From an uncultured Oscillospiraceae bacterium (GTDB lineage Bacteria; Bacillota; Clostridia; Oscillospirales; Oscillospiraceae), in assembly GCA_947599925.1 (NCBI GenBank), contig CANQFT010000001.1, positions 62,001-126,000 of the forward strand: a stretch of 64,000 nt of DNA, read 5' to 3'. The notes under the pieces are model-generated. The model did not search any database, had not been told where the DNA came from, and saw only the letters and a program-made list of their open reading frames with translations. The position numbers and the translations under genes were made by a program. Below, one piece after another: positions 24,153 to 50,496 of the stretch. The first letter of the stretch is position 1, and each line of letters opens with the position of its first letter.

Positions 24153-24255
24153 TGTCCGCGAAGAGGCTATGATACCGACTGGATGCGCCATAAAAATGCT
24201 TTCAGGTACATTTTAACTTCCGGGGCTATACTGTTCCAGGAAAGGGGTGGGACGG

Positions 24256-24933
24256 ATGCGTATTCTGATCGCCGAGGACGAGATCCCCATCGCCAAGGCC
24301 CTCAAGGCCCTGTTGGAGCGAAACAAGTACACCGTGGACATGGTCCACAACGGCAACGATGCCCTGGACTACATCACCGAGGTCAGCTACGACGCTCTGG
24401 TGCTGGACATTATGATGCCCGGGCTGGACGGGTTGGAGGTCCTCCGCCGGGCCCGCGCCCAGGGAGTCGCCGCCCCCGCCCTCTTCCTCACGGCCCGGAG
24501 CGAGGTGGAGGACCGGGTGACGGGGCTGGACGCCGGGGCGGACGACTATCTGCCCAAGCCCTTTGCCACCGCGGAGTTCCTGGCCCGCGTCCGGGCCCTG
24601 ACCCGCCGCCGGGGAGAGTACGCCCACGCCCTGCTCACCCTGGGCGACCTCACTTTGGACACCGCGGAGTATACCCTGCGGGTGGGGGATGCCCAGGAGC
24701 GGCTGAGCAACAAGGAATACCAGCTGATGGAGCTGCTGATGCGAAACCCCAGGCAGGTCTTTTCCACGGAGCGGCTGATGGAGACGGTCTGGGGCCTGGA
24801 CGCCGAGGCGGATCTGGACGTGGTCTGGACGTACATCGGCTTTTTGCGGAAAAAACTCAAGGCCCTGGGCGCCCATGTGGAGCTGCGGACCATCCGGGGG
24901 CTGGGGTACACGCTGGAGGAGAGCCTATGCTGA
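24256..24933 (+). CDS. OmpR-family response regulator
   Basis: MRILIAEDEIPIAKALKALLER...LDIMMPGLDGLEV...PKPFATAEFLARVRAL plus winged-helix domain. Confidence 0.95.
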   Translation: MRILIAEDEIPIAKALKALLERNKYTVDMVHNGNDALDYITEVSYDALVLDIMMPGLDGLEVLRRARAQGVAAPALFLTARSEVEDRVTGLDAGADDYLPKPFATAEFLARVRALTRRRGEYAHALLTLGDLTLDTAEYTLRVGDAQERLSNKEYQLMELLMRNPRQVFSTERLMETVWGLDAEADLDVVWTYIGFLRKKLKALGAHVELRTIRGLGYTLEESLC

Positions 24934-26219
24934 AGAAGATGCACTGGCGGTTCATCGCCTCCGCCATGGCCGCCATCACCGCGGTGGTGCTGGTGCTGGT
25001 GGGAGGGATGAACCTCTGGAACTACCACATCACGACCCAGCGGCAGGACGACATCCTGGCCGAGCTGATGACCCGGCAGGAGGACCAGACAGTCCCGTCT
25101 CCCAACCTCCCCTCCGACTCCCTCGCCGATCCTCCGGAGGACCAGGAGCCGCCTCCGGACCGGGAGGGGCGGGAGCCCTTCCGGGACGACGCGCCCTTTG
25201 GCCGGGGCGGCCACTCCCCGGAACTGCGGTATATGCTGCGCTACTTCGCCGTCACCTGCGACGCGTCGGGGACGGCGGTGGGGACCGACCGGGAATTTAT
25301 CGCCTCGGTGACTTCCCAGGAGGCGGCCCAGTGGGGCGAGCGGGTGGCCCGCTCCGGCGGGACGACGGGGTATCTGAACGGCTACCGCTACCTGAAGCGC
25401 GCCACCGGGGACGGCTGGACCATCCTCTTTTTGAACTCCGAGCGGGAGATCCAGGCCATGCTCACGCTGTTGGCGGTGTCCTCGGCGGTGGCGGTCATCA
25501 GCCTGCTGGTGGTCTTTGTGCTGGTGGTGCTGTTCTCCCGGCGGGCCATCGCCCCTTATGTGCGGAACATCGAGATGCAAAAGCAGTTCATCACCGACGC
25601 CGGCCATGAGCTCAAGACCCCTCTCACCGCCATCTCCGCCTCCGCCGACGTCCTGGCCATGGACGCCCCGGACAGCGAGTGGGTGGCCTCCATCCAGACC
25701 GAGTGCGCCCGGATGAGCAAGCTGGTGTCCGACCTTGTCACCCTGTCCCGGCTGGACGAGGAGCAGCCCTTCCCGGAACGGGCCGACTTCTCGCTGTCCG
25801 ACGCGGTCTGGGAGATCGCCGAGCCGGCCCAGACCTTGGCCAAGGCCAGACAGCGGACCTACGAGCAGACCATCCAGGACGGGATCGTCCTCCACGGGGA
25901 CAAGGGAGCCATCCAGCAAATGGTGTCCATCCTGCTGGACAACGCCATGAAATACTCCGCCGAGCGGGGGCGGATCCGCCTGAGCCTGAGCCGGGTCAAG
26001 GGCAGGGCCCAGATCCAGGTGTTCAACACCTGCGACCTCTCCGGCGTGGAGATCGACCGGCTCTTCGACCGCTTCTACCGCCCGGACGCCTCCCGCTCCT
26101 CCCACACCGGCGGGACCGGCATCGGCCTGTCCATCGCCCGCTCCATCGCCCAGGCCCACGGGGGCAGCCTCACCGCCCAGACCGGGGACGGGGGCATCAC
26201 CTTCACGGCGCGGTTCTGA
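24927..26219 (+). CDS. Sensor histidine kinase
   Basis: MLKKMHWRFIASAMAAITAVV; FITDAGHELKTPLTAISASADVL; GGTGIGLSIARSIAQAHGG; overlaps the RR stop. Confidence 0.95.
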   Translation: MLKKMHWRFIASAMAAITAVVLVLVGGMNLWNYHITTQRQDDILAELMTRQEDQTVPSPNLPSDSLADPPEDQEPPPDREGREPFRDDAPFGRGGHSPELRYMLRYFAVTCDASGTAVGTDREFIASVTSQEAAQWGERVARSGGTTGYLNGYRYLKRATGDGWTILFLNSEREIQAMLTLLAVSSAVAVISLLVVFVLVVLFSRRAIAPYVRNIEMQKQFITDAGHELKTPLTAISASADVLAMDAPDSEWVASIQTECARMSKLVSDLVTLSRLDEEQPFPERADFSLSDAVWEIAEPAQTLAKARQRTYEQTIQDGIVLHGDKGAIQQMVSILLDNAMKYSAERGRIRLSLSRVKGRAQIQVFNTCDLSGVEIDRLFDRFYRPDASRSSHTGGTGIGLSIARSIAQAHGGSLTAQTGDGGITFTARF

Positions 26220-26421
26220 CCGCCGGAAAACGCCCGCCGCGCCCAGACGGGACAAAAGCGTCCGCAGCTCCAGGCTGTGGGCGCTTTTTTTGGCGGCGGC
26301 GCCAACGTCACCAAGGGCCGGGCCGGGGCCGATGGCTTTACAGTTTGTTTACACTTCTTTTCAGGTTGATTTTGGGTTGAACTGGTATGCTGGCCCCAAT
26401 GATGAAAAGGGGGTCGGTTCC

Positions 26422-28128
26422 ATGTCTCAAACCTCTGCGCCGGTGAAGGAGAGACGGAAATTTCCGGTCAAGAAGCTGATCAAGTGGGTCGTGCTCCTGG
26501 CCGTGCTGGGCGTGGCCGGGTTTCTGGTCCTGCGGCACTTCACAGCCGGAGAGGGCGACCGCTCCGCCGGAGGCGACGTGGCCCGGATCACCGCACAGGT
26601 GGAGCGGCGCACCATCACCAGCTCTCTGAGCGGCAGCGGCACGCTCCAACCGGCCGCCTCCTATACGGTCACGACCCTGGTCCAAGGGGACATCCTCTCC
26701 GACACCTTCCAGGAGGGGGACCTGGTGGAAGAGGGGCAGGTCCTCTACCAAATCGACAGCTCGGACGCCGCCAACAACATCGAAAAGGCCCAGCTCTCCT
26801 TGTCCCAGGCCCAGAGGAGCTACAACAACACCCTGCAGGACCGCTACATCACCTCCGACGCCTCCGGGCAGGTCTACTCTTTGGAGGTAGAGGAGGGGGA
26901 CAAGGTCAACAACGGCCAGACCATCGCCCTGCTCCGGGACAGCTCGGTGATGACCCTGGAACTTCCCTTCCCCGCCGATGACGCCAAGGGCTTTTTCGTG
27001 GGCCAGACCGCCCAGGTCACTCTGGACGGCTCCTTTGAGGTGCTGACCGGGACGGTGACGGCGGTGGCCGCCACCGACACCGTGGCGGCGGGCAACTCCA
27101 TCCAGCGCGCCGTCACCATCGGGGTGGAGAACCCCGGCGGGCTCTCCACCGGCCAGGCCGCCGCCGCGGAGGTCAACGGCGTGGGCTGCGCGGCCAGCGG
27201 CGTGTTTTCCTACCGCGCCCAGTCCGCCGTCACCGCCTCCGCCTCCGGGACCATCACCCAGCTGAACATCCGGGAAGGGGACTGGGTGACCAGCGGCCAG
27301 ACCGTGGCCGTCTTGGGCGGCGACGACCTGAACAACTCCATCCAGAACGCCCAGGACTCCCTGCGAAACGCGGAGCTGTCCATGGAGAACACCCAGGAAC
27401 AGCTGGAGAACTACACCATCACCGCCCCGGTCAGCGGCACGGTGGTGGACAAGAACAAAAAGGCCGGGGAGACCATCTCCAACGCCAGCGCGGACCAGAC
27501 CCTCTGCACCATCTATGACCTGTCCTATCTGGAGATGACCCTGGCCATCGACGAGCTGGACATCAGCAAGGTGGCGGTGGGCCAGAAGGTCAGCATCACC
27601 TCCGACTCGGTGGAGGGAAAGAGCTACACCGGCGTCGTCACCAAGGTCTCGGTGGTGGGCGCCACCTCCATGGGCATCACCTCCTATCCCGCCACCATCC
27701 GCATCGACGAGACCGACGGTCTGCTTCCGGGGATGAATGTGGACGCGGAGATCGTGCTCAGCCAGGTGGAGGACGCCCTGACCATCCCCTCCGCCGCTCT
27801 GGAGCGGGGGAACCGCGTGCTGATCCCCGAAACCTCTCCCAGCGCAGCCAACGCCCTGGCCGACCAGGAGGCCCCGGAGGGGTACGTCTACGTCCAGGTG
27901 GAGACCGGCGCCAGCGACGACAGCTACATTGAGATCACCTCCGGTCTCCAAGAGGGGGACAGCGTGGCCTACACCCCCGCCACGGGAGAGAGCAGTGAGA
28001 TACCCTTTGGAATGCCCGGCGCCATGGGCGGGATGAATATGCCCGGCGGCGGATCCTTCGGCGGAGAACGCGGCGCCGGGGGCTTCAGCGGCAACCCCAA
28101 CCGGGGCGGGAACTTTGGGGGGCGCTGA
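26422..28128 (+). CDS. Efflux periplasmic adaptor/HlyD-like (MacA/RND-type) with Gly/Met-rich C-terminus
   Basis: Single N-terminal TM, biotinyl-lipoyl-like repeats (GTVVDKNKKAGETI), C-terminal GGMNMPGGGSFGGERGAGGFSGNPNRGGNFGGR. Confidence 0.9.
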   Translation: MSQTSAPVKERRKFPVKKLIKWVVLLAVLGVAGFLVLRHFTAGEGDRSAGGDVARITAQVERRTITSSLSGSGTLQPAASYTVTTLVQGDILSDTFQEGDLVEEGQVLYQIDSSDAANNIEKAQLSLSQAQRSYNNTLQDRYITSDASGQVYSLEVEEGDKVNNGQTIALLRDSSVMTLELPFPADDAKGFFVGQTAQVTLDGSFEVLTGTVTAVAATDTVAAGNSIQRAVTIGVENPGGLSTGQAAAAEVNGVGCAASGVFSYRAQSAVTASASGTITQLNIREGDWVTSGQTVAVLGGDDLNNSIQNAQDSLRNAELSMENTQEQLENYTITAPVSGTVVDKNKKAGETISNASADQTLCTIYDLSYLEMTLAIDELDISKVAVGQKVSITSDSVEGKSYTGVVTKVSVVGATSMGITSYPATIRIDETDGLLPGMNVDAEIVLSQVEDALTIPSAALERGNRVLIPETSPSAANALADQEAPEGYVYVQVETGASDDSYIEITSGLQEGDSVAYTPATGESSEIPFGMPGAMGGMNMPGGGSFGGERGAGGFSGNPNRGGNFGGR

Positions 28129-28130
28129 GC

Positions 28131-28868
28131 ATGGAGGCCCTGATCGAATTTCGCCAGGTCTGTAAGTTTTACCGCATGGGCGAGGAGACGGTGGTGGCCG
28201 CCGACCACATCGACATGACCATCCAGCGGGGAGAGTTCGTCGCCATCGTGGGCCAGTCCGGTTCCGGCAAGAGCACCTGCATGAACATCATCGGCTGTCT
28301 GGACGTTCCCTCCGAGGGGGTCTACCTGCTGGACGGGCAGGATGTGGGCCGGCTCTCCACCAAAAAGCTGGCCGCCATCCGCAACAAGATGCTGGGCTTT
28401 ATCTTTCAGCAGTATAACCTTCTGCCCAAGCAGAGCATTCTGGAAAACGTGGAGGTGCCCTTGATGTACGCGGGCGTGCCCCGGGGAGAGCGGCGGCGGC
28501 GGGCCATGGAGGTACTGGAGCAAGTTGGCCTGGCCGACAAGTACCGCCACCGGCCCAGCCAGCTCTCCGGCGGCCAGCAGCAGCGGGCGTCCATCGCCAG
28601 GGCGCTGGCCGGACGGCCCGCCATCATCCTGGCTGACGAGCCCACCGGCGCTTTGGACAGTCACACCGGCCGGGAAGTGCTGGCCATGCTCCAGGACGTC
28701 CACCGCCAGGGCAACACCGTCGTCCTGATCACCCACGACAACTCCATCGCCTGCGAGGCCCAGCGCATCATCCGCCTGGAGGACGGCCGGGTGGTCTACG
28801 ACGGGGACCCCCGCGCGCCCCAGGCCGTGGTACGCCACCGTTCCGGCGGAGAGGGGGGAGCCCGGTGA
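28131..28868 (+). CDS. ABC transporter ATP-binding protein (MacB-type)
   Basis: [52 protein letters not shown]. Confidence 0.96.
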
Positions 28869-30058
28869 GCATTTTGGAGACCTTCGGCCTGGCCCTGCAA
28901 AATATCTGGGCCAGCAAGATCCGCACCCTGCTGACCATGCTGGGCATTATCATCGGCGTCACCGCCGTGATCGTCATCGTGGGGCTGGGAAACGGGATGC
29001 AGAACTATATGCGCGACTCCTTTGCCTCTCTGGGCACCAATCAGCTCACCGTGATGATCTCCGGCCGCGGCTCCTCCAGAAGCATCTCTGTGGATGAGAT
29101 GTACCAGCTGGTGGAGGATCACGCCTCCTTGCTGGAGGGGCTCTCCCCCACCGTGCCCGTGATGGGGCAGATCAAGGTGGACACCGAGACCCTCTCCTCC
29201 TCCGTCACCGGCGTGGGGGAGGACTATCTGGATATGAAGGGCCTCACCCTGGCCCAAGGCCGGGGGCTCCAGTACGCGGACGTCGCCGAGCGGCGCACCG
29301 TGTGCGTGGTGGGGGCCTATGTGGCCCGGGAGTATTTTCAAAATAACGCCGTGGGCCAGACCCTGCGGGTCAACGGCAGGAAGGTGAACATCGTCGGGGT
29401 CCTGGAACAGCAGGAGGAGGACATGGACGAGGGCGGGAGCGACGACTGCCTCTATCTGCCCTATTCCACCGCCTCTCGCTTCTTCTCCGGCGGGCAGGTG
29501 AGCAGTTATATGGTGACGGTGACCGACGAGGACCGCATCAACGACGCCCAGACCGTCTTAGAGGACGCCCTCTACGCCGTCTTTGGCGACAGCGACTCCT
29601 ACACCGTGTCCAACATGGCGGCGGCGCTGGAGACCATGAACTCCATGATCGGCATGGTCATCACCATCCTGGCCCTCATCGCCGGGATCTCCCTTTTGGT
29701 GGGCGGCATCGGCATTATGAATATCATGCTGGTCTCGGTGAGTGAGCGCACACGGGAGATCGGCATCCGAAAGGCGCTGGGGGCGCGGGAAGGGGTCATC
29801 CTCCGGCAGTTCGTCATCGAGGCGGCCACCACCTCCGGCCTGGGCGGACTGTTTGGCATCGCCCTGGGCTACCTTCTCTCGCGGGTGGCCACCGTGGTGA
29901 TCACCAACCTCACCGAGACGGCCATCACCGTCTCCCCATCCCTGGCGGCGGTGGCCATGGCCTCCGGCATCTCCATCGCCATCGGCGTGCTGTTTGGCTT
30001 TCTCCCCGCGCGCAAGGCGGCCCGGCTCAACCCCATCGACGCTTTGAGATACGATTAA
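28865..30058 (+). CDS. ABC transporter permease (MacB/FtsX-type)
   Basis: NIWASKIRTLLTMLGIIIGVTAVIVIVGLGNGMQNYM...ERTREIGIRKALGAREGVILRQFVIEA. Confidence 0.95.
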   Translation: MSILETFGLALQNIWASKIRTLLTMLGIIIGVTAVIVIVGLGNGMQNYMRDSFASLGTNQLTVMISGRGSSRSISVDEMYQLVEDHASLLEGLSPTVPVMGQIKVDTETLSSSVTGVGEDYLDMKGLTLAQGRGLQYADVAERRTVCVVGAYVAREYFQNNAVGQTLRVNGRKVNIVGVLEQQEEDMDEGGSDDCLYLPYSTASRFFSGGQVSSYMVTVTDEDRINDAQTVLEDALYAVFGDSDSYTVSNMAAALETMNSMIGMVITILALIAGISLLVGGIGIMNIMLVSVSERTREIGIRKALGAREGVILRQFVIEAATTSGLGGLFGIALGYLLSRVATVVITNLTETAITVSPSLAAVAMASGISIAIGVLFGFLPARKAARLNPIDALRYD

Positions 30059-30072
30059 AGGAGTGCTGCTTT

Positions 30073-32277
30073 ATGAAACGATGGATCTCTTTCGCGCTGG
30101 CGCTGTGCCTGTTGACGGCGCTGATCCCGTCCGTACAGGCCGCCGGATCGGACAGCGGGGACGACGCGGTGGCCTGTCTGAAGGCGCTGGACATCTTGGA
30201 GGGGGACGGGACGGGCGATCTGAAGCTGTCCGCGCCAGTCACCCGCGCCGCCTTCGCCAAGCTGTTGGCGGCCACCTCTCCCTACCGGGACGACCTGGGC
30301 GGCCAGGGAGCGGGCTACTCGCTCTTCACCGATGTGAAAAGCGGCCATTGGGCCGGCGGATATATCAAGCTGTGCCTGGATAACGGCTGGATGATCGGCT
30401 ATACCGACGGCTCTTTCCGCCCAGACGACCCCGTCTCCTTGGAGGAGGCGTGTACCGCCGGACTGCGGCTGTTGGGCTATGCCAGCGCCGACCTCTCCGG
30501 CCCCTTCCCCGCCGCGCAGCTCAACAAGGCCGCCGCCGTGGGACTGCGGGACGGCCTCGCCGCCCAGCAGGGCCAGGAGCTCACCCGTGAGGAGTGCGTC
30601 CGGCTCTTTTACAACCTCCTCACCTGCAAGACCCCGCAGGGCCAAGTCTACGCCTCCACGCTGGGCCTCCCGCTGGACAGCGACGGGGAGGTGGACTACC
30701 TGGCGGCGGTGAAGGAGGACCTGGAGGGGCCCTTCCTCAGCGGGGAGACCGAGCCCGCCCTGCCCGCCGCTCCAGAGGTGATCTACCTCAACGGCCAGCG
30801 GGTGTCCGACATCCTCTGGCAGAAGGACGATGTGTACTACTACGCCCACGGCTACCTGTGGGTCTACCGTGAGCCGGTCTACGGCCAGATCTCCGCGCTG
30901 AACCCCACCGCGGCCGACCCGGAGACGGTGAGCGTCAACAACAAGACCTATACGCTGTCCGGCAGCGCGGTGAAAGAACAGCTCTCCGCCCTGGGCTCCA
31001 GGGCGGTGGGGGCCAGCGTGACGCTGCTGCTGGGCATGGACGGCCAAGTGGCCGCCGTCCGCGCCGTCAGCGGGCCCTTTGTGGCGGGGGATGCCGACAC
31101 GCTGGGCTTTGCGCCCCGGACGGTCTACCGGGACGGCGCGCTCTCCAACAGCGCCGCGCTTTCCAAGTACGACGTCTACTATTATAGCGCCGATGAATCC
31201 GCCCTTTGGATCTACACCGACCGGGTCTCCGGCAGGATCCAGGCGCTGACGCCCAGCCTGTCAGCCCCCACCGCCGTCACCATCTCCGGCCAGAGCTACA
31301 CCCTTGCCACCGACGCCCTGTCCCGGAAGCTGTCCAGCCTCAACGGCAAGTGGACAGACCGGTTCGTCACCCTGCTTTTGGGCATGGACGGCACGGTGGT
31401 GGAGGTGCTGACCGACGAGGCGGTAGAGGCCACCTACTACGGCGTGGTGCAGTCGGCTGTCAAGACGGCGGCGGACGGCGCGGTGGAGTGGCAGATCACC
31501 CTGCTGTGTACCGATGGCCGCCAGCACACCTTCTCCGCCGGCGCCGACAGGACCTGGGAGACGGGCGACCTGGCCCGCGTGACGGTGGACCAGGACGGGG
31601 CGGAGTTTGAGTCTCTCAGGAGGCGCGCCCTCTCCGGCACAGTGGACGCCGGCGCCTCCAAAGCGGGCAGTTACGCCCTCGCCGACAACGTCAAAGTCCT
31701 GGACGTGGACGAGGACGGAGACGGCGGGGCGGTGGAGCGCTCCGAGCTGGCGGGGCTGGCCCTCACGGAGAGCAACGTGCGCTACTACGAACTGAACGAC
31801 AGCGGCCAGGTGGAGCATCTGATCCTGCAAAACGCCACGGAGCTTTTGTGGGAGCACGGCCTGTTGACCAAAGTGGAGAGCAGTTCCCGCGACTCCATGA
31901 GCAGCACGACCCAGTACACCATCCTGATCGACGGCCAGAGCCGGACCTACTCCCTCAGCGGCCAGAGTTTCCCCGTCACGGCGGGCCAGGGCGTGGCGGT
32001 GCGCTTCTCCGCCGCGGGCGCGATCGTGGGGATGCGCGCCCTGACCGCGGTGGAACTGGCCGAGGTCCGGCCCTCCTCCGGCGCCGCCGTGGGCGCCGAC
32101 GGCCAGAGCTATGACTTGGCGGGCGAGGTGAGCGTCTGCCTGCGGGCCGCGGACTGGAACTACTACGCCCTGGAGCGGGAGGACCTCAAGACCCTGAGCG
32201 CCGACGACTACACCTTGACCGGCTACTACGACACGGCCCAGGGAAAGCTCCAGGTCATCCTGGCCCGACAAAAATAA
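30073..32277 (+). CDS. Secreted SLH-domain protein
   Basis: Signal peptide MKRWISFALALCLLTALIPSVQA; FTDVKSGHWAGGYIKLCLDNGWMIGYTDGSFRPDDPVSLEEA. Confidence 0.8.
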   Translation: MKRWISFALALCLLTALIPSVQAAGSDSGDDAVACLKALDILEGDGTGDLKLSAPVTRAAFAKLLAATSPYRDDLGGQGAGYSLFTDVKSGHWAGGYIKLCLDNGWMIGYTDGSFRPDDPVSLEEACTAGLRLLGYASADLSGPFPAAQLNKAAAVGLRDGLAAQQGQELTREECVRLFYNLLTCKTPQGQVYASTLGLPLDSDGEVDYLAAVKEDLEGPFLSGETEPALPAAPEVIYLNGQRVSDILWQKDDVYYYAHGYLWVYREPVYGQISALNPTAADPETVSVNNKTYTLSGSAVKEQLSALGSRAVGASVTLLLGMDGQVAAVRAVSGPFVAGDADTLGFAPRTVYRDGALSNSAALSKYDVYYYSADESALWIYTDRVSGRIQALTPSLSAPTAVTISGQSYTLATDALSRKLSSLNGKWTDRFVTLLLGMDGTVVEVLTDEAVEATYYGVVQSAVKTAADGAVEWQITLLCTDGRQHTFSAGADRTWETGDLARVTVDQDGAEFESLRRRALSGTVDAGASKAGSYALADNVKVLDVDEDGDGGAVERSELAGLALTESNVRYYELNDSGQVEHLILQNATELLWEHGLLTKVESSSRDSMSSTTQYTILIDGQSRTYSLSGQSFPVTAGQGVAVRFSAAGAIVGMRALTAVELAEVRPSSGAAVGADGQSYDLAGEVSVCLRAADWNYYALEREDLKTLSADDYTLTGYYDTAQGKLQVILARQK

Positions 32278-33096: not shown

Positions 33097-33363
33097 ATGC
33101 GGTTGGAGATCAACATCCGGGACCGTGACAAACTTGTGGAGATCTGGCTGACCAATGCCGAGAAAGACGACGAGGACCTGCAACGACGGCTCAGGCCCCT
33201 CTATCAGACCTGCCAAAAGCAGGGCTATCTGGCCGCTGTATTCAAATCGGGCAACGAGGGCCTGACCGCCCTCACCGGGACCCTGCTCACCTCCAACCGC
33301 AGGCGCATGGCGAACCAGGCGGCGCGCCAGGACGCTCCGCGGCCCATGGAACTCGCCCGGTAG
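33097..33363 (+). CDS. Small hypothetical protein, possibly mobile-element associated
   Basis: MRLEINIRDRDKLVEIWLTNAEKDDEDLQRRLRPLYQTCQKQGYLAAVFKSG...; RBS GGGGGAG. Confidence 0.5.
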   Translation: MRLEINIRDRDKLVEIWLTNAEKDDEDLQRRLRPLYQTCQKQGYLAAVFKSGNEGLTALTGTLLTSNRRRMANQAARQDAPRPMELAR

Positions 33364-33450: not shown

Positions 33451-34485
33451 ATGGATAACAAGAGCGACGAGCTGATGAAAGTCGGCCAGGTACTGCTGTA
33501 CAGTGATAGCAACGGAAAAGAATTTGTGAGCGTGGTTTTCCAGGATGAGAACTTCTGGCTGACCCAAAGCGGGATGGCCCAGCTTTTTGCCTGTACCCCG
33601 GAGAACATTCTTCAGCACCTGAAAAACATCTACGCCGAGGAAGAACTGGAGCGGGAGGCAACGACTAAGAAATTCTTAGTGGTTCGCCAGGAGGGCGCCC
33701 GCCAGGTCCGGCGCGAACTGGAGCATTACAACCTGGACGCCATCATCGCCGTGGGCTACCGGGTGAACTCCAAGAAGGCCACCCGCTTCCGCCAGTGGGC
33801 CACCAGGACCCTGAAGGAGTACATCCAGAAGGGCTTTGTCCTCAACGACGAGCTGATGAAAAACGGCCGCCCCTTCGGCAAGGACTACTTCGACGAACTC
33901 CTGGAGCGCATTCGGGAAATCCGGGCCAGCGAGCGCCGGGCCTATCAGAAGATCGCCGACATCTTCGAGCAGTGCAGCTACGACTACGACAAGCGGAGCG
34001 ATACCACCAAGGCTTTTTACGCCTTTGTCCAAAACAAGCTCCACTTCGCCGTCACCGGCCAGACCGCCGCCGAGTTGATCGCGGAGCGGGCCACGCCGGA
34101 CAGCCCCACCATGGGCCTGACCACCTGGAAGGCCGCTCCCGATGGCAAGATCCTGAAAAGCGATACCCTCATCGCGAAAAACTACTTAAACGAGAAGGAG
34201 CTCTCCCGTCTCAACCGGCTGGTCACCATGTTCATCGACTACGCCGAGCTGATGGCGGAGGACCAGGTGCCCATGTCCATGGCGGACTGGCTGGCCGAGG
34301 CCGACCGCTTCCTGGCCCACAACCGCCAGAAGGTGCTGGAGGGCAAGGGCCGCGTTTCCCACGAGGAGGCGGCCAAAAAGGTGGGGGACATCTATGAGGA
34401 GTTCCGCAAAAAGCAGGACGCCGCCTACATCTCCGAGTTTGACCGCCAGACGGCGAAATACCTGAAGGGTGAAACCGATGATTGA
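33451..34485 (+). CDS. RhuM family protein
   Basis: SVVFQDENFWLTQSGMAQLFACTPENILQHLKNIY...EHYNLDAIIAVGYRVNSKKATRFRQWATRTLKEYIQKGFVLND. Confidence 0.9.
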   Translation: MDNKSDELMKVGQVLLYSDSNGKEFVSVVFQDENFWLTQSGMAQLFACTPENILQHLKNIYAEEELEREATTKKFLVVRQEGARQVRRELEHYNLDAIIAVGYRVNSKKATRFRQWATRTLKEYIQKGFVLNDELMKNGRPFGKDYFDELLERIREIRASERRAYQKIADIFEQCSYDYDKRSDTTKAFYAFVQNKLHFAVTGQTAAELIAERATPDSPTMGLTTWKAAPDGKILKSDTLIAKNYLNEKELSRLNRLVTMFIDYAELMAEDQVPMSMADWLAEADRFLAHNRQKVLEGKGRVSHEEAAKKVGDIYEEFRKKQDAAYISEFDRQTAKYLKGETDD

Positions 34486-36676
34486 AAAATTTGCCATCGC
34501 CGGATACTGCCGCATCTCGGTGGACGAGGAGCTGGACCGGGACAACACCTCCATCGAAAACCAAAAGGCCATCATCGGGGACTTTGTGAAGCGCAAATTC
34601 CCCGGCTCTGCCCTGACCTTCTACGAGGACCGGGACAAGTCCGGCTATACCTTCGACCAGCGGCCCGGCTACCAGGCCATGCGCCGGGAGCTGATGGGCC
34701 ACAAAAAAGACATCCTCATCATCAAGGACTTCTCCCGCTTCTCCCGCCGCAACTCCCGCGGCCTGGTGGAGTTGGAGGACCTGCGGGACGCGGGGGTGCG
34801 GATCATCTCCATCGGGGACAACATCGACTTCCCCAACGACGACGACTGGCTGAAGATCCAGTTTCAATTCCTCATCAACGAGATGCCCGTCACCGACGCC
34901 AGCAAGAAGGTGAAGTCGGTGATCCAGCGCCGCCAGCAGGACGGCCAGTGGCTCTGCGCCGCCCCCTACGGCTATATCCTCAACAAGCGCCGGGAATTTG
35001 AGATCGTCCCCACCGAGGCGGAGATCGTCCGGGAGATCTTCCGGCTCTACATCGGCGGCTGGGGCTACAAGAAGATCGCCAACCATCTCACCGACCGGGG
35101 GATCCCGACTCCTCGGATGGCCGAGCGGGAGCGGAGAGAGGCGGCGGGGGAGGAGTGCCGGCGTCCGGCCAAGCCCCTCTGGGCCATTGTCACCATACAG
35201 GGCATCCTGGACAACGACTTTTATATCGGCACGCTCCGCCAGGGAAAGTACACCCGCGGGAAGATCAACGGCAAGGACGTGCGGCGGGACGAGGCGGAAC
35301 ACATCGTCATCGAGCGCCACCACCAGCCCATCCTCGACGACCGCACCTTCGCCACCGCCCATGCCCTGCGCCAGACCCGATCCACCGCCCACTACCGGGG
35401 CCAGAAGAAGTACGACAACGCCTACTCCGGCTTCCTGTTCTGCGGGGACTGCGGCTCTCCCATGTTCGCCATGAGCCGCCGGGACCTCAGGGACGCCTAC
35501 CGCTGCGGGACCTACCACCGCCGGGGGCTGAAAGGCTGCACCAGCCACCACATCCGGGTGGACAAGCTGGACGAGCTGTTGAAGCGGTATATCCGCAAGG
35601 TCCGGGACAACTCCGCCGCCATGCTGGACCGCCTCAACGCGGACTTGGACAAGGAGCAGGAGGACGTGGCCGAAACGGAGCAGGCCGCCGCCCATCTGGA
35701 AGCGGTGCTGGCGGACCTGCGGGACGAGCTGAAAGCCACCAAGCGCCAGCGTGTCCGGGACGTGATGCGCCATCCGGAGCAGGAGGAGACGCTGGAGGCG
35801 ACCTACGACGAGTTGGAAGCCGACCTCCTCCGCCGGATCGAGGGCGTCCAGAGCCAGATCGCCATGGCCCAGGACAGGCGCAACACCATCATCCGGGTGA
35901 ACCGGGCGGCAAAGACCGCCCAGGAGGTCTTTGCCGACATACTGAACAAGCCCAGGCTGGACCGCGGCGACCTCCAGCTCATCATCGAGAAGATCATGGT
36001 CTACGAGGACCACATCGAGGTGCAGCTCAAAGCCGACGTGGACAGCATCCTCCGCTGCGGCGAACTGCCGGAGGAGCCGGCCGGGGAGCGGCCCGCGGGG
36101 GCGGCGGCCATGGCCCCCGCCCCCATCCCTCTGGACCGGCGGGCGGCGGACGACTACGAGATCCAGATCACCCAGTCCAGCGATAAGCACGGCGACAAGG
36201 TCTTTACGGTCAAAGTCGTCAGGGAGGGCGACCCGCTGGAGATCTTCACCGACAAGGACGGCGGCGTGGTGTTCAAAAAGTACAGCCTGATGGGTGGGCT
36301 CAGCGACTTCGCCGGGCAGATGTGCGAGACCCTGTCCAAACTCTCCGGCCTCACCGCCGTCATCACCGACCGGGACAGCGTGCTGGCCGTCTCCGGCGCC
36401 TGCCGCAAGGAACTCTCCGAGCGGGCGGTCAGCGAGGACCTGGAAAAGCTGATGGAGGGCCGCCAGCTCTATGTGTCCCAGGACGGCCAGAGCCATGTGA
36501 CCATCTGCCGGGACAGCGAGCAGTTCCAGGCCATGGTGTGCGCCCCCATCCTCTCCGGCGGCGACGTGCTGGGCGCGGTCCTCTTCGTGCAGGAGGAGGG
36601 AAAAACCGCCGGCGAGGCCGAGGTGAAAATGATCCAGACCGCCGCCGGTTTCCTCAGCCGGCACATGGAATCTTAA
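34478..36676 (+). CDS. Large serine recombinase fused in frame at its C-terminus to the SpoVT C-terminal (GAF-like) domain
   Basis: AIAGYCRISVDEELDRDNTSIENQK..., IIKDFSRFSRRNSR, zinc-ribbon CGDCGSPMFA, then from 36224 EGDPLEIFTDKDGGVVFKKYSLMGGLSDFAGQ...AAGFLSRHMES = SpoVT C-terminus. Confidence 0.92.
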   Translation: MIEKFAIAGYCRISVDEELDRDNTSIENQKAIIGDFVKRKFPGSALTFYEDRDKSGYTFDQRPGYQAMRRELMGHKKDILIIKDFSRFSRRNSRGLVELEDLRDAGVRIISIGDNIDFPNDDDWLKIQFQFLINEMPVTDASKKVKSVIQRRQQDGQWLCAAPYGYILNKRREFEIVPTEAEIVREIFRLYIGGWGYKKIANHLTDRGIPTPRMAERERREAAGEECRRPAKPLWAIVTIQGILDNDFYIGTLRQGKYTRGKINGKDVRRDEAEHIVIERHHQPILDDRTFATAHALRQTRSTAHYRGQKKYDNAYSGFLFCGDCGSPMFAMSRRDLRDAYRCGTYHRRGLKGCTSHHIRVDKLDELLKRYIRKVRDNSAAMLDRLNADLDKEQEDVAETEQAAAHLEAVLADLRDELKATKRQRVRDVMRHPEQEETLEATYDELEADLLRRIEGVQSQIAMAQDRRNTIIRVNRAAKTAQEVFADILNKPRLDRGDLQLIIEKIMVYEDHIEVQLKADVDSILRCGELPEEPAGERPAGAAAMAPAPIPLDRRAADDYEIQITQSSDKHGDKVFTVKVVREGDPLEIFTDKDGGVVFKKYSLMGGLSDFAGQMCETLSKLSGLTAVITDRDSVLAVSGACRKELSERAVSEDLEKLMEGRQLYVSQDGQSHVTICRDSEQFQAMVCAPILSGGDVLGAVLFVQEEGKTAGEAEVKMIQTAAGFLSRHMES

Positions 36677-36902
36677 GTAAACCCGCCAAAGGCGATAAGT
36701 GCAGTTTTTCGGCATTTATCGCCTTGTTTTTATGTCAACAGCGAGTTTTGTCGAACGATTTTCCGACTTTTTTGCGATTTTTATATTGCGGGAACTGTAA
36801 AAATATGGTATATTTACTCCACCGGACAGGGCCCGGACCGAGCCCCTCCGCCGGGGAAAACAGGCGCGGCCCTGGCCGCCGGAAATGGGGGAATACCACA
36901 TG

Positions 36903-37661
36903 GAACAGGAAATGGTGATCGTAGTGGGTGACGCTTCACAGGACTTTCAATCCGCCTTGACCGAGGCTGTGCGGCGGGAGCCGGGGATGCGTTTGGCAGG
37001 GGCCACGGGAGACGGGCAGGAGCTTTTGGAGCTGGTCCGCGCCCAGCGGCCCGACGCGGTGGTGATGGACCTGGTGCTGACGGGGATGGACGGGCTGGAA
37101 GTCCTGGCCCAGCTGCAGCAGTTGCCCCAGCGGCCCCAGATCCTGGTGGCCTCCGCCTTTCTCCACGAGGGGCTGGTGAGCCAGGTCCGCGGCAGCGGCG
37201 CGGCCTATCTGATGCCAAAGCCCTGCCGGGTCACGACGTTGCTGGAGCGTGTGCGGCAGCTGGTGGCGGGGGCGTCGCCCCTGGACCTGGTCCCCAGCCC
37301 CGGCGCGGAGAGCCTGGAACTGCGGGTCACGAGCATCATCCACGAGATCGGCGTGCCCGCCCACATCAAGGGCTACCAGTACCTCCGGGAAGCCATCCGC
37401 CTGGCGGTGGAGGACATGGAGGTCATCAACGCCGTCACCAAGGTGCTCTACCCCACCGTGGCCAAGACCTTCGGCACCACGCCCAGCCGGGTGGAGCGGG
37501 CCATCCGCCACGCCATCGAGGTGGCCTGGGACCGGGGCGACCTGGAGACCCTGCAAAAATACTTTGGCTACACCGTCTCCAACGCCAAGGGCAAGCCCAC
37601 CAACTCCGAGTTCATCGCCATGATCGCCGACCGCCTCCAACTCCAGCGCAAGGAGGGCTGA
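36903..37661 (+). CDS. spo0A: Sporulation transcription factor Spo0A
   Basis: C-terminal [26 protein letters not shown]...[22 protein letters not shown]...[16 protein letters not shown]; receiver [15 protein letters not shown]. Confidence 0.95.
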
Positions 37662-38079: not shown

Positions 38080-38916
38080 ATGGGATACGAAGCCGAAAAA
38101 GCAACGTTCAGCCTACAGCTGAAAGAATTTGCCGCTACTTTGGGATCAGCCATCGCCAAAAACGATGAATGGACGATTCGCGGCTTTATCGACATATTCA
38201 AGAATGTATATACCATTTCAACGGATACAAAAATTGTATCTAAACTCCTTGAATTACATCTGTTTCCCTTTTTTCTTTCTTTCGCAGAAGAAAAAGGATA
38301 CGACATTGAACTTGCTACCCATCAGAATTGGTATCCTGACCTGACCTTTCTGTCAAAGGCAGATCCGCAGATCAAGTTTGCGGTAGATTTGAAAACTACA
38401 TATAGGGATGAAGCCTATCCGGGGTTTTGTAACGGATTTACATTAGGATCACACGGCGAATACTTTGTAAAGCGTACAAGCACAAAGAACATACAGTACC
38501 CTTATGGGGAATACAGCGGTCACTTCTGTTTGGGAATCATCTATTCTCGCGCGGTTCTGGATAAGAGCGAGGAAACGCATATATACTCCCTTGACGAATT
38601 AGGAACCATTCCGCCGGTGATCAAGGATTTTTTGTTCTTTGCTGAAGAGAAATGGAAGATAGCCAGCGATAAAGGCGGAAGCGGTAACACTGCAAATATC
38701 GGCAGTATTCAAAAAATCGAGGATATTCTCCGCGGCAACGGTGTATTTGCCAAAGCCGGAGAAGAATTATTCGACGACTACTGGGCCAATTTTGGAAAGC
38801 TTAAGATCCGTGTGGATGGAAAGTGGAAAAAACTGTCGTCCTTCGAGGAATATTTGCGCTATCGTAGGCTCTCACTCGACTTGAACAACCCAAAAGCGGT
38901 AAAGAGGAGAGCGTGA
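38080..38916 (+). CDS. EcoRV-family type II restriction endonuclease
   Basis: QNWYPDLTFLSKADPQIKFAVDLKTTYR, STKNIQYPYGEYSGHFCLGIIYSRA, EEKWKIASDKGGSGNTANIGSI parallel EcoRV blocks (YPDFT..IDIKTTY; TKNIVYPF; KWVIAGDLAGSGNTTNIGSI, recalled). Confidence 0.85.
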   Translation: MGYEAEKATFSLQLKEFAATLGSAIAKNDEWTIRGFIDIFKNVYTISTDTKIVSKLLELHLFPFFLSFAEEKGYDIELATHQNWYPDLTFLSKADPQIKFAVDLKTTYRDEAYPGFCNGFTLGSHGEYFVKRTSTKNIQYPYGEYSGHFCLGIIYSRAVLDKSEETHIYSLDELGTIPPVIKDFLFFAEEKWKIASDKGGSGNTANIGSIQKIEDILRGNGVFAKAGEELFDDYWANFGKLKIRVDGKWKKLSSFEEYLRYRRLSLDLNNPKAVKRRA

Positions 38917-39830
38917 TGAACGATAAGGTATTTGTTCCGCCGATAAAGACACAAGGGATAAAGACAAAATCGGTTCCTCTGATTCAGCGGAGTGTCGTAA
39001 TGGACGAAGAGTCCGTATGGATAGAGCCTTTTATGGGCTCTGGTGTGGTTGGCTTCAATCTTGAGCCGAAGCGCGCCGTATTTGCGGATATAAATCCGCA
39101 TATCATAGCGTTTTATACTCAAATCAAAAACGGTGTTCTTACGCCCTGCATAGTGCGTGCGTTCCTTGAGCGCGAAGGACGGCTATTGGAGCAAAAAGAT
39201 GCCGAGCACTATTATTTTATTCGAAACCGGTTTAACCGGCAGCATGACCCATTGGACTTTTTGTTTTTGAACCGCGCTTGCTTTAACGGAATGATTCGAT
39301 TCAACAAAGATCATGACTTTAATGTTCCGTATGGACATAAGCCACAGCGATTTACAAAAGCTTATATCACAAAAATCGTGAATCAGGTCGCTCATGTGTC
39401 GCAGCTGTTGCAAAGACATTCTTGGGAGTTCCTTTGTCAATCATTTGAACGCACGATTGCCATGGCGACGGAACGTGATTTTGTCTATTGCGATCCGCCA
39501 TATATCGGCCGCCATGTAGATTATTATGACAGTTGGGATGAAGGCTCGGAGATCATGCTACACACCGCGTTAGTTGCCAGCAAGGCAAGGTTCATGTTGT
39601 CAACATGGGATCACAACGACTTCAGGGTAAACGAATATATCCAAACACTATGGGGCGATTGCCAAAAAATCACGCGGGAGCATTTTTATCATGTCGGTGC
39701 AAAGGAGATAAACAGAAACCCTGTTGTGGAAGCGCTGTTGACCAATTATACGATTACCGGGGCACAGGGTCACCGGGCATTGGAAGATCCTCAGATCACA
39801 CTATTTGAAATGGCACCTGCGTTTGGCTGA
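38916..39830 (+). CDS. Dam-family N6-adenine DNA methyltransferase (cognate of the EcoRV-like enzyme)
   Basis: IEPFMGSGVVGFNL, FLFLNRACFNGMIRFN, DFVYCDPPYIGRHVDYYDSWDEG. Confidence 0.9.
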   Translation: MNDKVFVPPIKTQGIKTKSVPLIQRSVVMDEESVWIEPFMGSGVVGFNLEPKRAVFADINPHIIAFYTQIKNGVLTPCIVRAFLEREGRLLEQKDAEHYYFIRNRFNRQHDPLDFLFLNRACFNGMIRFNKDHDFNVPYGHKPQRFTKAYITKIVNQVAHVSQLLQRHSWEFLCQSFERTIAMATERDFVYCDPPYIGRHVDYYDSWDEGSEIMLHTALVASKARFMLSTWDHNDFRVNEYIQTLWGDCQKITREHFYHVGAKEINRNPVVEALLTNYTITGAQGHRALEDPQITLFEMAPAFG

Positions 39831-39884
39831 TCCTCATTATTTCAAGAGCCAGACCAGCTAGACACACTTATGGAACAATAACGT

Positions 39885-39913
39885 CAAGGCCGGGAGTTCT
39901 CTCCCGGCCTTTT
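39885..39913. terminator. Rho-independent terminator
   Basis: AAGGCCGGGAG-TTCT-CTCCCGGCCTTTT. Confidence 0.85.
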
Positions 39914-40012
39914 GCTTTCCTGTTTGGCCCTTCCCATCAGGAACTCCCCCTTTCTTTTTTTGCCCTTTTGCGGTAAAATATATCCAAAAAGGCAGGGAGA
40001 GGGGGCTGCGCT

Positions 40013-42079
40013 GTGGAGAGGATCACCTGGGACACGCCGCTGGGCGGTTTTCCTGGCGTGGGGGCGGCCCGGCAGCGGGCGCTGGCCAAGCTGGGGCTGG
40101 AGCGGGCGGGGGATCTGCTGACCTTCTATCCCCGGCGCTACGAGGACCGCCGGACCGTCTGGCCCATCGCCCAGGCCCCTGTGGGGGTGGACTGCTGCGT
40201 GGCGGTCACGGTCACCAGGCCCGCGGTCCTGTCCCGGATCCCCGGCGGGCGGCAGATCGTCCGCTGTACCGTCAGTGACGACACCGCCGCTCTGGAGCTG
40301 ACCTTCTTCAACCGCCCCTTCGCGCAAAAGGCCCTCCGCACCGGCGGGCGCTACATCCTCTTTGGCAAGATCGACCTCTTTGGCGGGCGGCGGCAGATGG
40401 TGAACCCCACCGTGGAGGACGCGGCCCGCCCCAAGCTGGCGGGGACCATCGTGCCCTGCTACCCGCTGACGGCGGGGCTGTCCAACGGCCAGGTCATGGC
40501 CTGGGTCCGGCTGGCGGTGGAGGGCTGCCTGGACCAGTTGGCCGAGACCCTGCCCGATCAAGTCCTGGCCCAAGCCCAGCTGCCCGGCATCCAGTGGGCC
40601 TGCGCCCAGATCCACTTTCCCAAGGACCCGGCGGCGCTGGAACAGGCCCGGCGGCGGATGGCCTTTGAGGAGTTTTTCTACCTGACGGTGGGGCTGGGGG
40701 TGCTCCGCAAGCGCCGGGAGACCCACCGCGGCGCACCGCTGACGGCGGGCGGACGGGCGGACTTCGAGCCCCTGCTGCCCTTTGCCCTCACCGGCGCCCA
40801 GCGCCGGGTCATAGACGAGTGCGCCGCGGACCTCTCCGGTGACGTGCCCATGAACCGCCTGGTGCAAGGGGACGTGGGCTCGGGCAAGACGGCCATCGCC
40901 GCTTTCTGCCTCTGGCGGGCCGCCAAAAGCGGCGCCCAGGGCGCTATGATGGCCCCCACCGAGCTGTTGGCCCACCAGCACTTCGAGACCCTCCGGGCCC
41001 TGCTGGAGCCCGACCATGTGGCGGTGGCTTTGCTCACCGGGTCCCAGACCCCGGCGGAAAAGCGGGCCATCAAAAAAGCCCTGGCCGCCGGGGACATCCA
41101 GGTGGTGGTGGGGACCCACGCCCTGCTCAGCCAGGGCGTGGACTTCCGGGACCTGGCCCTGGCGGTGGTGGACGAACAGCACCGCTTCGGGGTCAACCAG
41201 CGCTCCGCCCTGGCCGCCAAGGGCCGCCACCCCCATCTGCTGGTCCTCTCGGCCACCCCCATTCCCCGGACCCTGGCCCTGATCTTGTACGGCGACCTGG
41301 ACGTGTCCATTCTGGACCAGTTGCCGCCGGGCCGGACCCCGGTGGAGACCTATCTGGTCAGCGAGGCGTACCACCCCCGGCTCTACAAATTCGTGGACAA
41401 GCTGGTGGACCAGGGGCGGCAGGTGTACATCGTCTGCCCCGCCGTGGACGAGAGCGAGGCCGCCGAGGGCGACCCCACGCTGAGGTCCGTGACCCAGTAC
41501 GCCCGCCATCTGGCCGAGGCCGTCTTTCCCCACCGGAGGGTGGCCTTTGTCCACGGCAAGCTGAGACCGGCGGAAAAGGAGGCGGTCATGGCCGCCTTCG
41601 CCGCCGGGGAGGTGCAGGTGCTGGTGTCCACCACCGTCATCGAGGTGGGGGTGGACGTGCCCAACGCGGCGCTGATGGTGGTGGAGAACGCCGACCGCTT
41701 TGGCCTCAGCCAGCTCCACCAGCTCCGGGGACGGGTGGGCCGCGGGAAGCACCAGTCCTACTGCGTGCTGGTGTCCAACAACAAAAACCCGGAGACCCGC
41801 GCCCGGCTCAAGGCCCTGTGCGCCACCACCGACGGCTTCGCCATCGCCCAGGCCGACCTGGACGCCCGCGGCCCCGGCGACTTCTTTGGCGCCCGGCAGC
41901 ACGGCCTGCCCACCCTCCACCCCTCCAGCCTCTGGGCCGACGTGCGCCTGATCCAGCAGGCCCAGCAGACGGCCCAGGCGCTTCTGGAGACCGACCCGGC
42001 CCTGACCCTGCCCCAGCACCAGCTGATGTGGCCGCGGCTGCGGCAGCTGTTCGCGGAAAACCCCGACGTCTTCAACTGA
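40013..42079 (+). CDS. recG: ATP-dependent DNA helicase RecG (GTG start)
   Basis: GDVGSGKTAIAAFCLWRAAKSG, VVDEQHRFGVNQRSAL, LSATPIPRTLALILYGDLD, QLRGRVGRGKHQSYC. Confidence 0.97.
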   Translation: MERITWDTPLGGFPGVGAARQRALAKLGLERAGDLLTFYPRRYEDRRTVWPIAQAPVGVDCCVAVTVTRPAVLSRIPGGRQIVRCTVSDDTAALELTFFNRPFAQKALRTGGRYILFGKIDLFGGRRQMVNPTVEDAARPKLAGTIVPCYPLTAGLSNGQVMAWVRLAVEGCLDQLAETLPDQVLAQAQLPGIQWACAQIHFPKDPAALEQARRRMAFEEFFYLTVGLGVLRKRRETHRGAPLTAGGRADFEPLLPFALTGAQRRVIDECAADLSGDVPMNRLVQGDVGSGKTAIAAFCLWRAAKSGAQGAMMAPTELLAHQHFETLRALLEPDHVAVALLTGSQTPAEKRAIKKALAAGDIQVVVGTHALLSQGVDFRDLALAVVDEQHRFGVNQRSALAAKGRHPHLLVLSATPIPRTLALILYGDLDVSILDQLPPGRTPVETYLVSEAYHPRLYKFVDKLVDQGRQVYIVCPAVDESEAAEGDPTLRSVTQYARHLAEAVFPHRRVAFVHGKLRPAEKEAVMAAFAAGEVQVLVSTTVIEVGVDVPNAALMVVENADRFGLSQLHQLRGRVGRGKHQSYCVLVSNNKNPETRARLKALCATTDGFAIAQADLDARGPGDFFGARQHGLPTLHPSSLWADVRLIQQAQQTAQALLETDPALTLPQHQLMWPRLRQLFAENPDVFN

Positions 42080-42208
42080 GGCCGGGCCCTGAATTTCCCA
42101 GGGGCCGGAGGCGACATTTTTCGTGACATTTCCCGCTTGGTGTGCTATACTTTGAAAGATATGGAAGCCCCCGATCAGGACACACTGGATACAAAGGGTG
42201 ATTTGGAT

Positions 42209-45200
42209 ATGAAAAACGGTTGGAAACGCCTGACCAGCCTCTGGCTGGCGGCGGCCCTGAGCCTCTCTCTGGCGGTCCCGGCCTGGGCCGTGGAGCCCGC
42301 GGCGGAGGCGGAGGCCGGGGCGGGGGAGGCCGCCCGGCCCTTCTCCGTCACGGTCGGCGACTATGTGCCCGGCATGGTCGGCTCGGAGAACATCCAGGCC
42401 GGAGGGATCTACACCCTCATCGCCCTGCCCGCGGACATTGCCATGGACGGCGGCGCGGTCAAGCCCCTGACCCCGGATGCACTGCTGGAGGCGGCGGGCC
42501 AGGCGCTCTACATCGGCTCGGCGGTGGCCTCGGAGAACGGCTACGTGGCCTTCCGCGATGTGCGCCTCCGCACGGCGGACGCGGTGGTCTATTACGTCAC
42601 CGGCCCCGGCCTGGAAACGCCGCTCTACGAGGCCACCAACGACTACACCAGCATCGTGGGCGCCGTCCGCACCGACACCCTCGACCACTCCGCCACCATC
42701 GCCCTGGTGGACGGGGAGACCGGCTACGCCTATGCCAACACCGCCGAGGCCGACGCCGCCGGCGACTTCTTCTTTGAGCACGTAGCTCCGGGCACCTACT
42801 CCCTGCGGGTGACAAAGCCCGGCTACCTGCCCACCACCCGCACGGCGGTGGAGGTCCCCGACAGGGGCGAGATGTACCTGCCGGACTTTGACATCTCCTC
42901 CGACGCCGGCGGCCTGTTCCGGGTGGGTGACGTCACCGGGGACGGGGTCCGGGACATGGAGGACCTGGCCGCCATGTTGCTCTGCTTTGAGCGGCCTGAC
43001 GCCGTGCCCGTGGGCTTTACCGCCGACCTCAACGGCGACGGCGCGGTGGACAAGCTGGACAGCGACCTGTTGCTCACCGCCGCCGCCAAGCCCGACGTCC
43101 CCGACATCGCCACCGGCACGGCGGAAAACGTCACCGGGGCCAGGCTGACGGTGAAGGACTCCAACGCCGCCGCCACCGCCGCCCAGCGGTATCTCTCCAT
43201 CGGCGCGGAGACCGCCGCCACGGTCTCCGCCGCCGCCTTCTCTCTCACCTTCCCTCTGGACGCGGTCCAGCCCCTCAACGCCGCGGGCGGCCTCATCTCC
43301 CCGGTGGACGGCTCCTCCGTGGCCAGCTGCCTGGTCCCCGCCTCCGGCGTGGAGGTCAAACTGGCGCGCTGGCAGGTCCGCGGGGGCTACGCCACCCTCT
43401 CCTTCGCCCTCACCTGCGGCGCGCCCAAGGCCGCCGGAGAGCTGGCCAGGTTCTACTACTGCCCCGCCGAGGGCTCTACCGCCGGGTTCTATGACGGCGT
43501 GTTCACCCTGGACCACGCCGCGGGGCTGGTGGGCAGGAACACGGTGGTCACCCTCTGCGACCTGGCCTATCCCGGCCAGGACAGCGCCCAGATCGACCGC
43601 CTTGTCATCGACCAGACCGACGCTACGCTGACGATCCCCGCCGCCGGACGCACCGCTGTGCTGGCCCTGTCCGCCACGGGCTACGCGGGCCAGACGGCCT
43701 ATCCCGACCTCACCGGACTGGTCTGGACCGTGGCCGACGAGAGCGGCCAGACCCCGGCCTGGGCCGGAGTGGAGCAGGGCCTGCTCACCGTCACCGCCGA
43801 CGCCGTGCCCGGCACGCTTTCTGTCACCGCCGCGCGGGGCGATGTGGCGTCCGAGCCCCTCTCCGTGACGCTGGAAAACGAGGCCGCCGTGCCCACCACG
43901 CTGGTGGTGGAGCCCGTCCAGGGCCCCGCCACCCTCACCGTTCCCTCCGGCGAACAGGGCCGGCTGGCCTTTGCCGCCACGGTCTATGACCAGTACGGCA
44001 AGGAGATGGAGCTGGACCAGGGCGTGACCTGGTCCCTCTCCGGCCATCCTGACGGGGTGAGCGTGGACGACGCTGGCGTTCTCACCGCCGACTGCGCCGA
44101 CCTGGCCGCCAGGGACGGCGGCTACCGCTTCACCCTCCACGCCCAGGTCCTTGGTCTGAGCCAGGGCGTCCAGGTCACTCTGCTGGTGGAGGCCCAGCTG
44201 GCCCAGCTGGTCATCGCCGGGCCGGACAGCGCCATCATCCCGGACCGGGAGAGCGCGGCCACGGTGCTGGAGTATACCGTCACCGGCCTTGACCGGCGGG
44301 GCGATCCCATGGACCTCTCCGCGGACGACGTGTCCGTTTTCTCCGTGGCCCCGGCGGACCAGGGCGTGGAGGCCAGCAAGGGTCTGGACGGCAGCTATAC
44401 CGTCACCGTCTCCCCCACGGCCCAGGCCGGTGCATACACCATCACCGCCGCCCAGGGCGATGTGGAGGGGACCTATCCCCTCACGCTGACCCAGGCGGAG
44501 GACTATGTGGCCGTCCGGGCCTATCTGGACGCCCAGGACGGCGGGCAGTACACCCTCCAGGCCGGGACCGGCCTCTCCGCCGCGCTGGAGGCCGTGCTGC
44601 TGGACGCCGACGGCGACCGGGCCCTCGACCAGCCGGAGGCGTGGACCTGGACCCTCTCGCCCCAGCTGGAGGGATTTGACCTGATCCCCGGCGAGGGCGG
44701 GGCGGCGGAGCTGACGGTGGACAAGACCGTGGCCCCGGGGCGGTATACCCTGGCCGTCACCGCCGCCGATGAAGCGAGCGGCCTCAGCGTCACCCTGCCC
44801 ATCCTTTTGGAGATCCAAAGCGTGCTGGCCCGTCTGGAACTGGCCGCGCCGGAGAGCCTGGCCATCCCGGAGACCGGCGCTGTGGAGTGCGCCCTGACCG
44901 TCAACGGTTGGGATGGGCAGGGCGCCGCCATGAGCAATCTGGAGGACCTGATCTGGAACGTCACCGGCCAGGACGATGAGCCGGTCCAGGGCGTGGAGGT
45001 CCAGGCCGAGACCCGCCGCCTGGTGGTCTCCTCCTCCGCCGTGCCGGGGCAGATCACCCTGCGGGTGACCTCGCCGGAGGGCGATGTGGAGGCCACCGCC
45101 GAGGTGAAACTGACCCCGGCGGGCACCAGCACCGAACTCCTGGTGCTCTACCAGACCGTGGTGCTGGACGGCAAGACCGAGGCGGAGCTGGCCGCCCGCC

Positions 45201-48784: not shown

Positions 48785-48802
48785 CGAAAGGAGACGTCTG
48801 AT

Positions 48803-50452: not shown

Positions 50453-50463
50453 ACCCCGCGAAA

Positions 50464-50494: not shown

Positions 50495-50496
50495 AC

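Follow-up and report, generated by a model that had tools for sequence, protein, structure and literature searches.

A probable serine recombinase element in spoVT with its attP site in the 3' end of its own recombinase gene

The 64,000-nucleotide stretch of Oscillospiraceae DNA analysed here (the window) very probably holds an integrated serine recombinase element that entered the sporulation gene spoVT by crossover at a GA dinucleotide near codon 32, carries its attP site in the 3' end of its own recombinase gene, swaps the tail of the recombinase upon integration and would restore both genes upon excision. The anatomy of the element, its dyad, crossover point, conserved tail, fusion to the host gene and horizontal spread could all be read from sequence comparison. 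A preliminary description of the same DNA had recognized the attP site, but missed the spoVT target, the recombinase gene spanning its own attP and the conserved in-frame tail at the left end.

The target gene lies in two halves (coordinates refer to the window; features are on the plus strand unless stated otherwise). Its 5' half (23908-24001, up to the crossover) is immediately preceded by a Shine-Dalgarno-like AGGAGG, and the first 33 residues are identical to the intact SpoVT of the congener G002. The left flank encodes MKATGVVRRIDDLGRIVIPKEIRRTMRIREGDP, that is, SpoVT residues 1-33, the last of which are common to the element via a 13-bp repeat. The 3' half (36231-36676), comprising the remaining DNA-binding hairpin and the GAF domain, matches Pfam SpoVT_C (E 7e-38), NCBIfam spore_V_T and the solved SpoVT structure 2w1t, and is directly followed by spo0A (36885-37661). 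The element splits the gene near codon 32, and joining the flanks at GA resulted in a 179-residue SpoVT with 80% identity, free of gaps, to the gene of G002, in which spoVT is intact and the insertion site empty. Precise removal in silico restores spoVT in frame, as is characteristic of skin-type intervening elements. Just downstream of spo0A, genes for an EcoRV-type restriction endonuclease and a D12-class adenine methyltransferase were observed (38080-39830). At 39884-50620, the minus strand has a frame open over 3578 codons that matches nothing in Pfam.

The element-encoded part of the recombinase spans 587 codons (34469-36230). Matches to PF00239 (Resolvase), PF07508 (Recombinase) and PF13408 (zinc ribbon), all above cut-off, place it among the large serine recombinases, with Ser17 invariant in 14 sequences. 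Its closest solved counterpart is SprA (YokA), and long helices at residues 383-493 of the predicted model fit a coiled coil. The reading frame has no stop at the right end of the element and continues through the spoVT 3' half to 36676, giving 735 aa in total, so that this half forms the in-frame C-terminus of the integrated recombinase. Joining the circle in silico, in turn, yielded a 616-aa recombinase ending in a tail encoded at the left end. The open frame through the right end, together with this in-frame tail, indicates that integration swaps the native tail for the C-terminal GAF part of SpoVT; excision would restore both genes. Since the predicted structure of the fusion cannot be relied on at the junction (pLDDT <50 over residues 505-609), mimicry of the missing SpoVT hairpin by the recombinase tail is treated here as a possibility.

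In the proposed sequence of events, the recombinase of the circular element, bearing its own tail of about 28 aa, would join attP to attB in spoVT, a reaction we infer from its products. Integration would turn the recombinase into a recombinase-GAF fusion and leave the spoVT 5' half truncated, with the short tail attached to it. The predicted fusion enzyme, probably together with a directionality factor for which an 88-aa protein is a candidate, would then excise the element and leave both genes in frame. The inferred parts of this scheme are that the fusion is active, which protein acts as the directionality factor, and that excision takes place during sporulation. Were excision to occur in the forespore, the element would be missing from the spore, barring persistence and reintegration of the circle; skin and SPbeta escape such loss because their excision is confined to the mother cell. 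Tentatively, and with more doubt than confidence, we also consider that the tail swap might be a built-in direction switch, the short-tailed free recombinase being set for integration and the GAF fusion for excision. If so, excision would be gated by GAF sensing, and the element would read the sporulation state of its host via a domain of the host itself.

The arrangement recurs in a family of elements. A first search, covering 99 related genomes, returned 17 close relatives, whose open frames mostly span 717-776 codons. Scanning genome contigs revealed 427 relatives, of which the best 80 were taken; five from viral contigs brought the set to 85 loci. Among these 85 (best 80 of 427 plus five viral), 75 were recognized as in-frame fusions by pattern, to which L124, L142 and L172 were added on account of their SpoVT-type ends; four are cut by a contig end and three do not lie in spoVT (L138, L174, L187). 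Fusion into SpoVT_C was hence found in 78 of the 81 informative loci within this selection. Most carriers are metagenome assemblies; named isolates in the set include Flintibacter muris DSM 110149, Flavonifractor An100 and An306, Butyricicoccus pullicaecorum DSM 23266, Oscillibacter valericigenes An411 and Pseudoflavonifractor MSJ-30.

Recombinase and target gene have different histories. The recombinases of L041 and L182 are 94% identical, yet their SpoVT halves share only 42% identity, and in 630 pairs the recombinases differ by <25% while the SpoVT_C parts differ by >40%. Recombinases this similar on divergent SpoVT halves indicate that the element moves horizontally. Comparison with the congeners G001 and G005 gave dS values of 0.19-0.22 for the recombinase versus 0.34-0.51 for spo0A and spoVT_C. 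With the copies in these two genomes, the element has no more in common in place than its initial 74-98 bases and its final 3.2 kb, and the cargo differs.

We then turn to the state of the hosts. In 34 of 37 carrier genomes, spoVT is present only as separate halves; an intact copy was found in G143, G121 and G133, and in G143 and G133 the recombinase does not lie in spoVT. All 79 complete spoVT 3' halves (79/79) are open over 146-154 codons, and dN/dS of spoVT is near 0.3, similar to the comparison with the intact gene. A sigG-like match is present in every genome tested (36/36), 32 of them full length at 372-437 bits, which is below the strict cut-off of 457. In several carriers, sigG, the forespore sigma factor gene, was itself seen to be split by some element, between ...FSTYGVP and MIAGE... 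(L268-L273 in G009 and G128; only the C-part in G138 and G056).

Such retention might suggest a domesticated developmental switch, that is, a skin-like intervening sequence whose timed excision now belongs to the sporulation programme of the host. The open halves in all complete fusions, the retained sigG, the general lack of a second spoVT copy and the precedents of skin and SPbeta would fit this reading. We nevertheless rate it as unlikely: the cargo differs between congeners, the phylogeny of the recombinase strongly conflicts with that of the host gene, and G002, a member of the same genus, has an empty site. Moreover, the known precedents reside in genes of the mother cell. Elsewhere spoVT belongs to the forespore, both in B. 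subtilis and in C. difficile, whose mature heat-resistant spores depend on it (PMC3789822), so the spore would inherit the excision.

Plain disruption is a second reading, in which spoVT is dispensable to these hosts, insertion is tolerated and the fusion is accidental read-through. It agrees with the integrated state being the only one seen in assemblies, but would leave the stop-free 3' halves, their dN/dS and the retention of sigG unaccounted for; nor would in-frame junctions on both sides and a selected tail be expected by accident. We regard it as distinctly improbable.

The left-end tail (24002-24090; PLTTLERWERFCLGMLKLEKRAGWGGT plus stop) is in frame with the spoVT 5' half and conserved in 56 left ends, where the open frame stops 26-34 codons past the GDP codons. 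Tail-bearing left ends were recovered from about 40 genomes. Beyond the attP arm, pN/pS of the tail is 0.35 in the shared frame, compared to 1.17 and 1.3 in the other frames, and by this measure the tail is a peptide under purifying selection. The native tail, about 28 aa long, would form the C-terminus of the recombinase in the circular form. Alternatively, it could serve the truncated SpoVT 5' half, the two together forming an alternative small DNA-binding protein. The sequence itself is compatible with service to the recombinase, to SpoVT or to both, and in 56/56 left ends the 5' half reads into the tail without a change of frame. However, the break falls near residue 32-33, in the middle of the hairpin domain, and judged by the known SpoVT fold the 5' half should not fold alone; horizontal spread further implies that the tail comes from the element and the 5' half from the host. 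Service to SpoVT consequently appears decidedly doubtful, and the position of the break inside the SpoVT DNA-binding hairpin favors a tail that serves the recombinase. Two genomes show further tail arrangements. In the assembly of the isolate Ruminococcaceae bacterium P7 (G130; L219, L228-L231, L236), the spoVT 5' half occurs twice, each time followed by a different tail, and several more left ends lie at other sites. On one contig of G084 (L089 / L274), an intact spoVT is preceded, at a distance of 1 kb, by a 5' half of the gene that bears an element-like tail.

The point of exchange was located by comparing element ends. The left 13-bp repeat (attL; GAGGGCGACCCGC, 23995-24007) recurs as an exact copy at the right end (attR; 36224-36236), with the crossover dinucleotide GA at 24001-24002 and 36230-36231, respectively. 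At right ends outside spoVT (G034, G019), element sequence is kept up to ...GACAGCGA and ...AACGGCGA, that is, to ...GCGA, and then diverges; the G034 end adjoins the 3' side of a lepA-like gene. Left ends outside spoVT (L226-L231) start with GACCC after unrelated sequence. Taken together, and independently of the dyad, these ends point to a crossover at GA, exactly at the dyad centre. By this comparison, the exchanged element extends from 24001/24002 to 36230, about 12.23 kb. The same spoVT site in G094 (L049, L088) was found to hold an element with unrelated, nearly perfect, GA-centred arms (ATCCGTATGTATGCCGGGGGTG and ACCCCTTAGGATACATACGGAT to either side of the centre); in this genome, 240 kb separate the two spoVT halves, which lie on opposite strands.

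When the right end is joined to the left, the sequence reads CAAAGTCGTCAG-G-GAGGGCGACCCGC-CG-CTGACGACGTTG, centred between G at 36230 and A at 36231. The inverted arms that the preliminary description had reported from opposite ends of the element, CAAAGTCGTCAG at 36211-36222 within the recombinase reading frame and CTGACGACGTTG at 24010-24021, were reproduced, with a match of 11/12 overall and 8/8 nearest the core. In random joins of window places, pairs of at least 11/12 occurred in 0.3% of trials when the centre was allowed to vary within 8 bases and the gap from 0 to 30, and in 5 per million at the same exact position. The dyad of the window is therefore good by itself, but not overwhelming, and it is the family comparison that secures it. 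It supports the centre, yet alone is no proof of the outer boundaries that the preliminary description had given.

The family consensus, built from unique ends only (76 right, 51 left), reads TGTCAATGTTATCAGTGACGG-NGAC-CCGTCACAGACAACATTGACA. Its arms, at about 21 bp each, are longer than the 12 bases initially described. Written as TGTCAATGTTATCAGTGACGGCG|ACCCGTCACAGACAACATTGACA, with the bar at the centre, the consensus is symmetric at 19/21 of positions 3-23 from the centre, and the copy studied here keeps 14/21 of the consensus arm positions. In the 44 elements for which both ends are known, the dyad is present again, its arms matching at a mean of 16.2/21; sliding one arm by 1-5 bases reduces the match to 3.9-5.4/21. 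Pairing of arms within elements exceeded all 10000 shuffled pairings, to which kinship of the elements contributes. In the right arm, third codon positions are about as conserved as first and second positions, indicating that DNA recognition constrains the arm sequence beyond protein coding. An origin of the dyad by chance, or as a by-product of two coding sequences, as the coding nature of both arms and the 0.3% for this copy alone might suggest, has a practically negligible probability given this third-position conservation, the covariation of partner arms and the loss of symmetry upon a 1-base slide, by which the family comparison already contradicts it.

With two symmetric half-sites around a non-palindromic central dinucleotide, GA, which coincides with the crossover, and with the recombinase domains, the recurrence in 44 elements bears out the original reading as a large serine integrase attP; a check for related elements with different end sequences found none within the family. 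In attB, the outer (zinc ribbon) motif is expected about 5 bp inward, and a shift of 5 scored well in both halves, with a shift of -1 scoring better. Free attP junctions, indicative of a circle, were assembled in none of 64 genomes, all 17 pattern matches being attL sites, and none were present in two viral-contig scans. The short gut-phage record MT839487.1, whose recombinase is 66% identical, was discarded as a candidate circle, as it ends just before the att site. Nothing was detected at the dyad that would point to a tRNA or RNA-family origin.

Between the ends, the element carries a cargo of an OmpR-type response regulator (24247-24933), a sensor histidine kinase (24930-26219), an HlyD-type membrane fusion protein (26290-28128), an ABC ATPase (28131-28868) with a MacB/FtsX permease (28865-30058) and an S-layer homology domain protein (30073-32277). 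In the congener G001 (L265 4078-12186), the same 8-kb regulator-kinase-HlyD-ABC-MacB-SLH block, 91% identical to 24192-32276 here, resides outside the element, directly upstream of the spoVT 5' half, indicating that either the block or the left end was rearranged. The cargo of the present copy may hence be rearranged, and whether this copy can still move is in doubt. In most elements (34 of 40 loci), the 88-aa protein (33097-33363) is encoded ahead of the recombinase; its conservation makes it a candidate recombination directionality factor. This protein has no relative in Pfam, NCBIfam or PHROG, and its low-confidence model (pLDDT 62) gave no structural match at E <= 0.001. A RhuM family protein, encoded in a minority of elements, overlaps the start of the recombinase (33451-34485). 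Within the flanking DNA examined, 12 of 40 relatives carry a relaxase (PF03432 in the G005 copy), and on this gene content the element may be of the mobilizable-island type; a domain search of the element revealed no relaxase in this copy.

Serine recombinase elements in sporulation genes are already known, as are attP sites inside archaeal integrase genes. As in SPbeta (SprA/SprB) in spsM and skin (SpoIVCA; CD1231/CD1234) in sigK, a serine recombinase element splits a sporulation gene that precise excision can restore. Those elements, however, sit in mother-cell genes rather than in one that belongs to the forespore in other species, and the descriptions consulted mention no recombinase-host fusion, whereas here the recombinase exchanges its C-terminus. 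The A118/LI serine integrases use 25-bp half-sites with a central dinucleotide and an outer motif at positions 16-24 (PMC3783163). The present attP likewise has symmetric half-sites of about 25 bp, with an outer arm, TGTCAATGTT, at 14-23 and an inner GTGACGG at 3-9, but unlike theirs lies inside the recombinase coding sequence. In this respect it resembles the archaeal suicidal integrases (SSV1, pTN3, pT26-2), in which attP is inside the integrase gene and integration alters the integrase; those are tyrosine recombinases that become split and are probably inactivated (PMC8371274). Assignment to that class, defined by a tyrosine recombinase cut in two, was rejected, since the bacterial enzyme is a serine recombinase in which the catalytic and DNA-binding part stays whole and the C-terminal tail alone is exchanged. 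Integration-dependent immunity in mycobacteriophage BPs also relies on attP inside an element gene and a changed protein C-terminus, although there the gene is the repressor and not the recombinase itself (PMC4557955). In the literature searched, which lay largely outside subscription journals, we found no prior report in which a serine recombinase of bacteria reads across its own attP and trades C-termini with a regulator of the host, and no paper combining spoVT, 'serine recombinase' and 'insertion'.

A 2021 review described recombinases that disrupt their own gene upon integration as exclusively archaeal (PMC8371274). A bacterial family distributed across Flavonifractor, Oscillibacter, Butyricicoccus and their relatives contrasts with this statement. 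It makes testable the notion that the direction of a serine integrase is set by a swapped C-terminal domain, and the 44 reconstructed attP sites with their recombinases represent a ready set for specificity work. Finally, the element may bear on those gut anaerobes that possess sporulation genes yet are hard to sporulate, as spoVT of a carrier would stay split until the element leaves.
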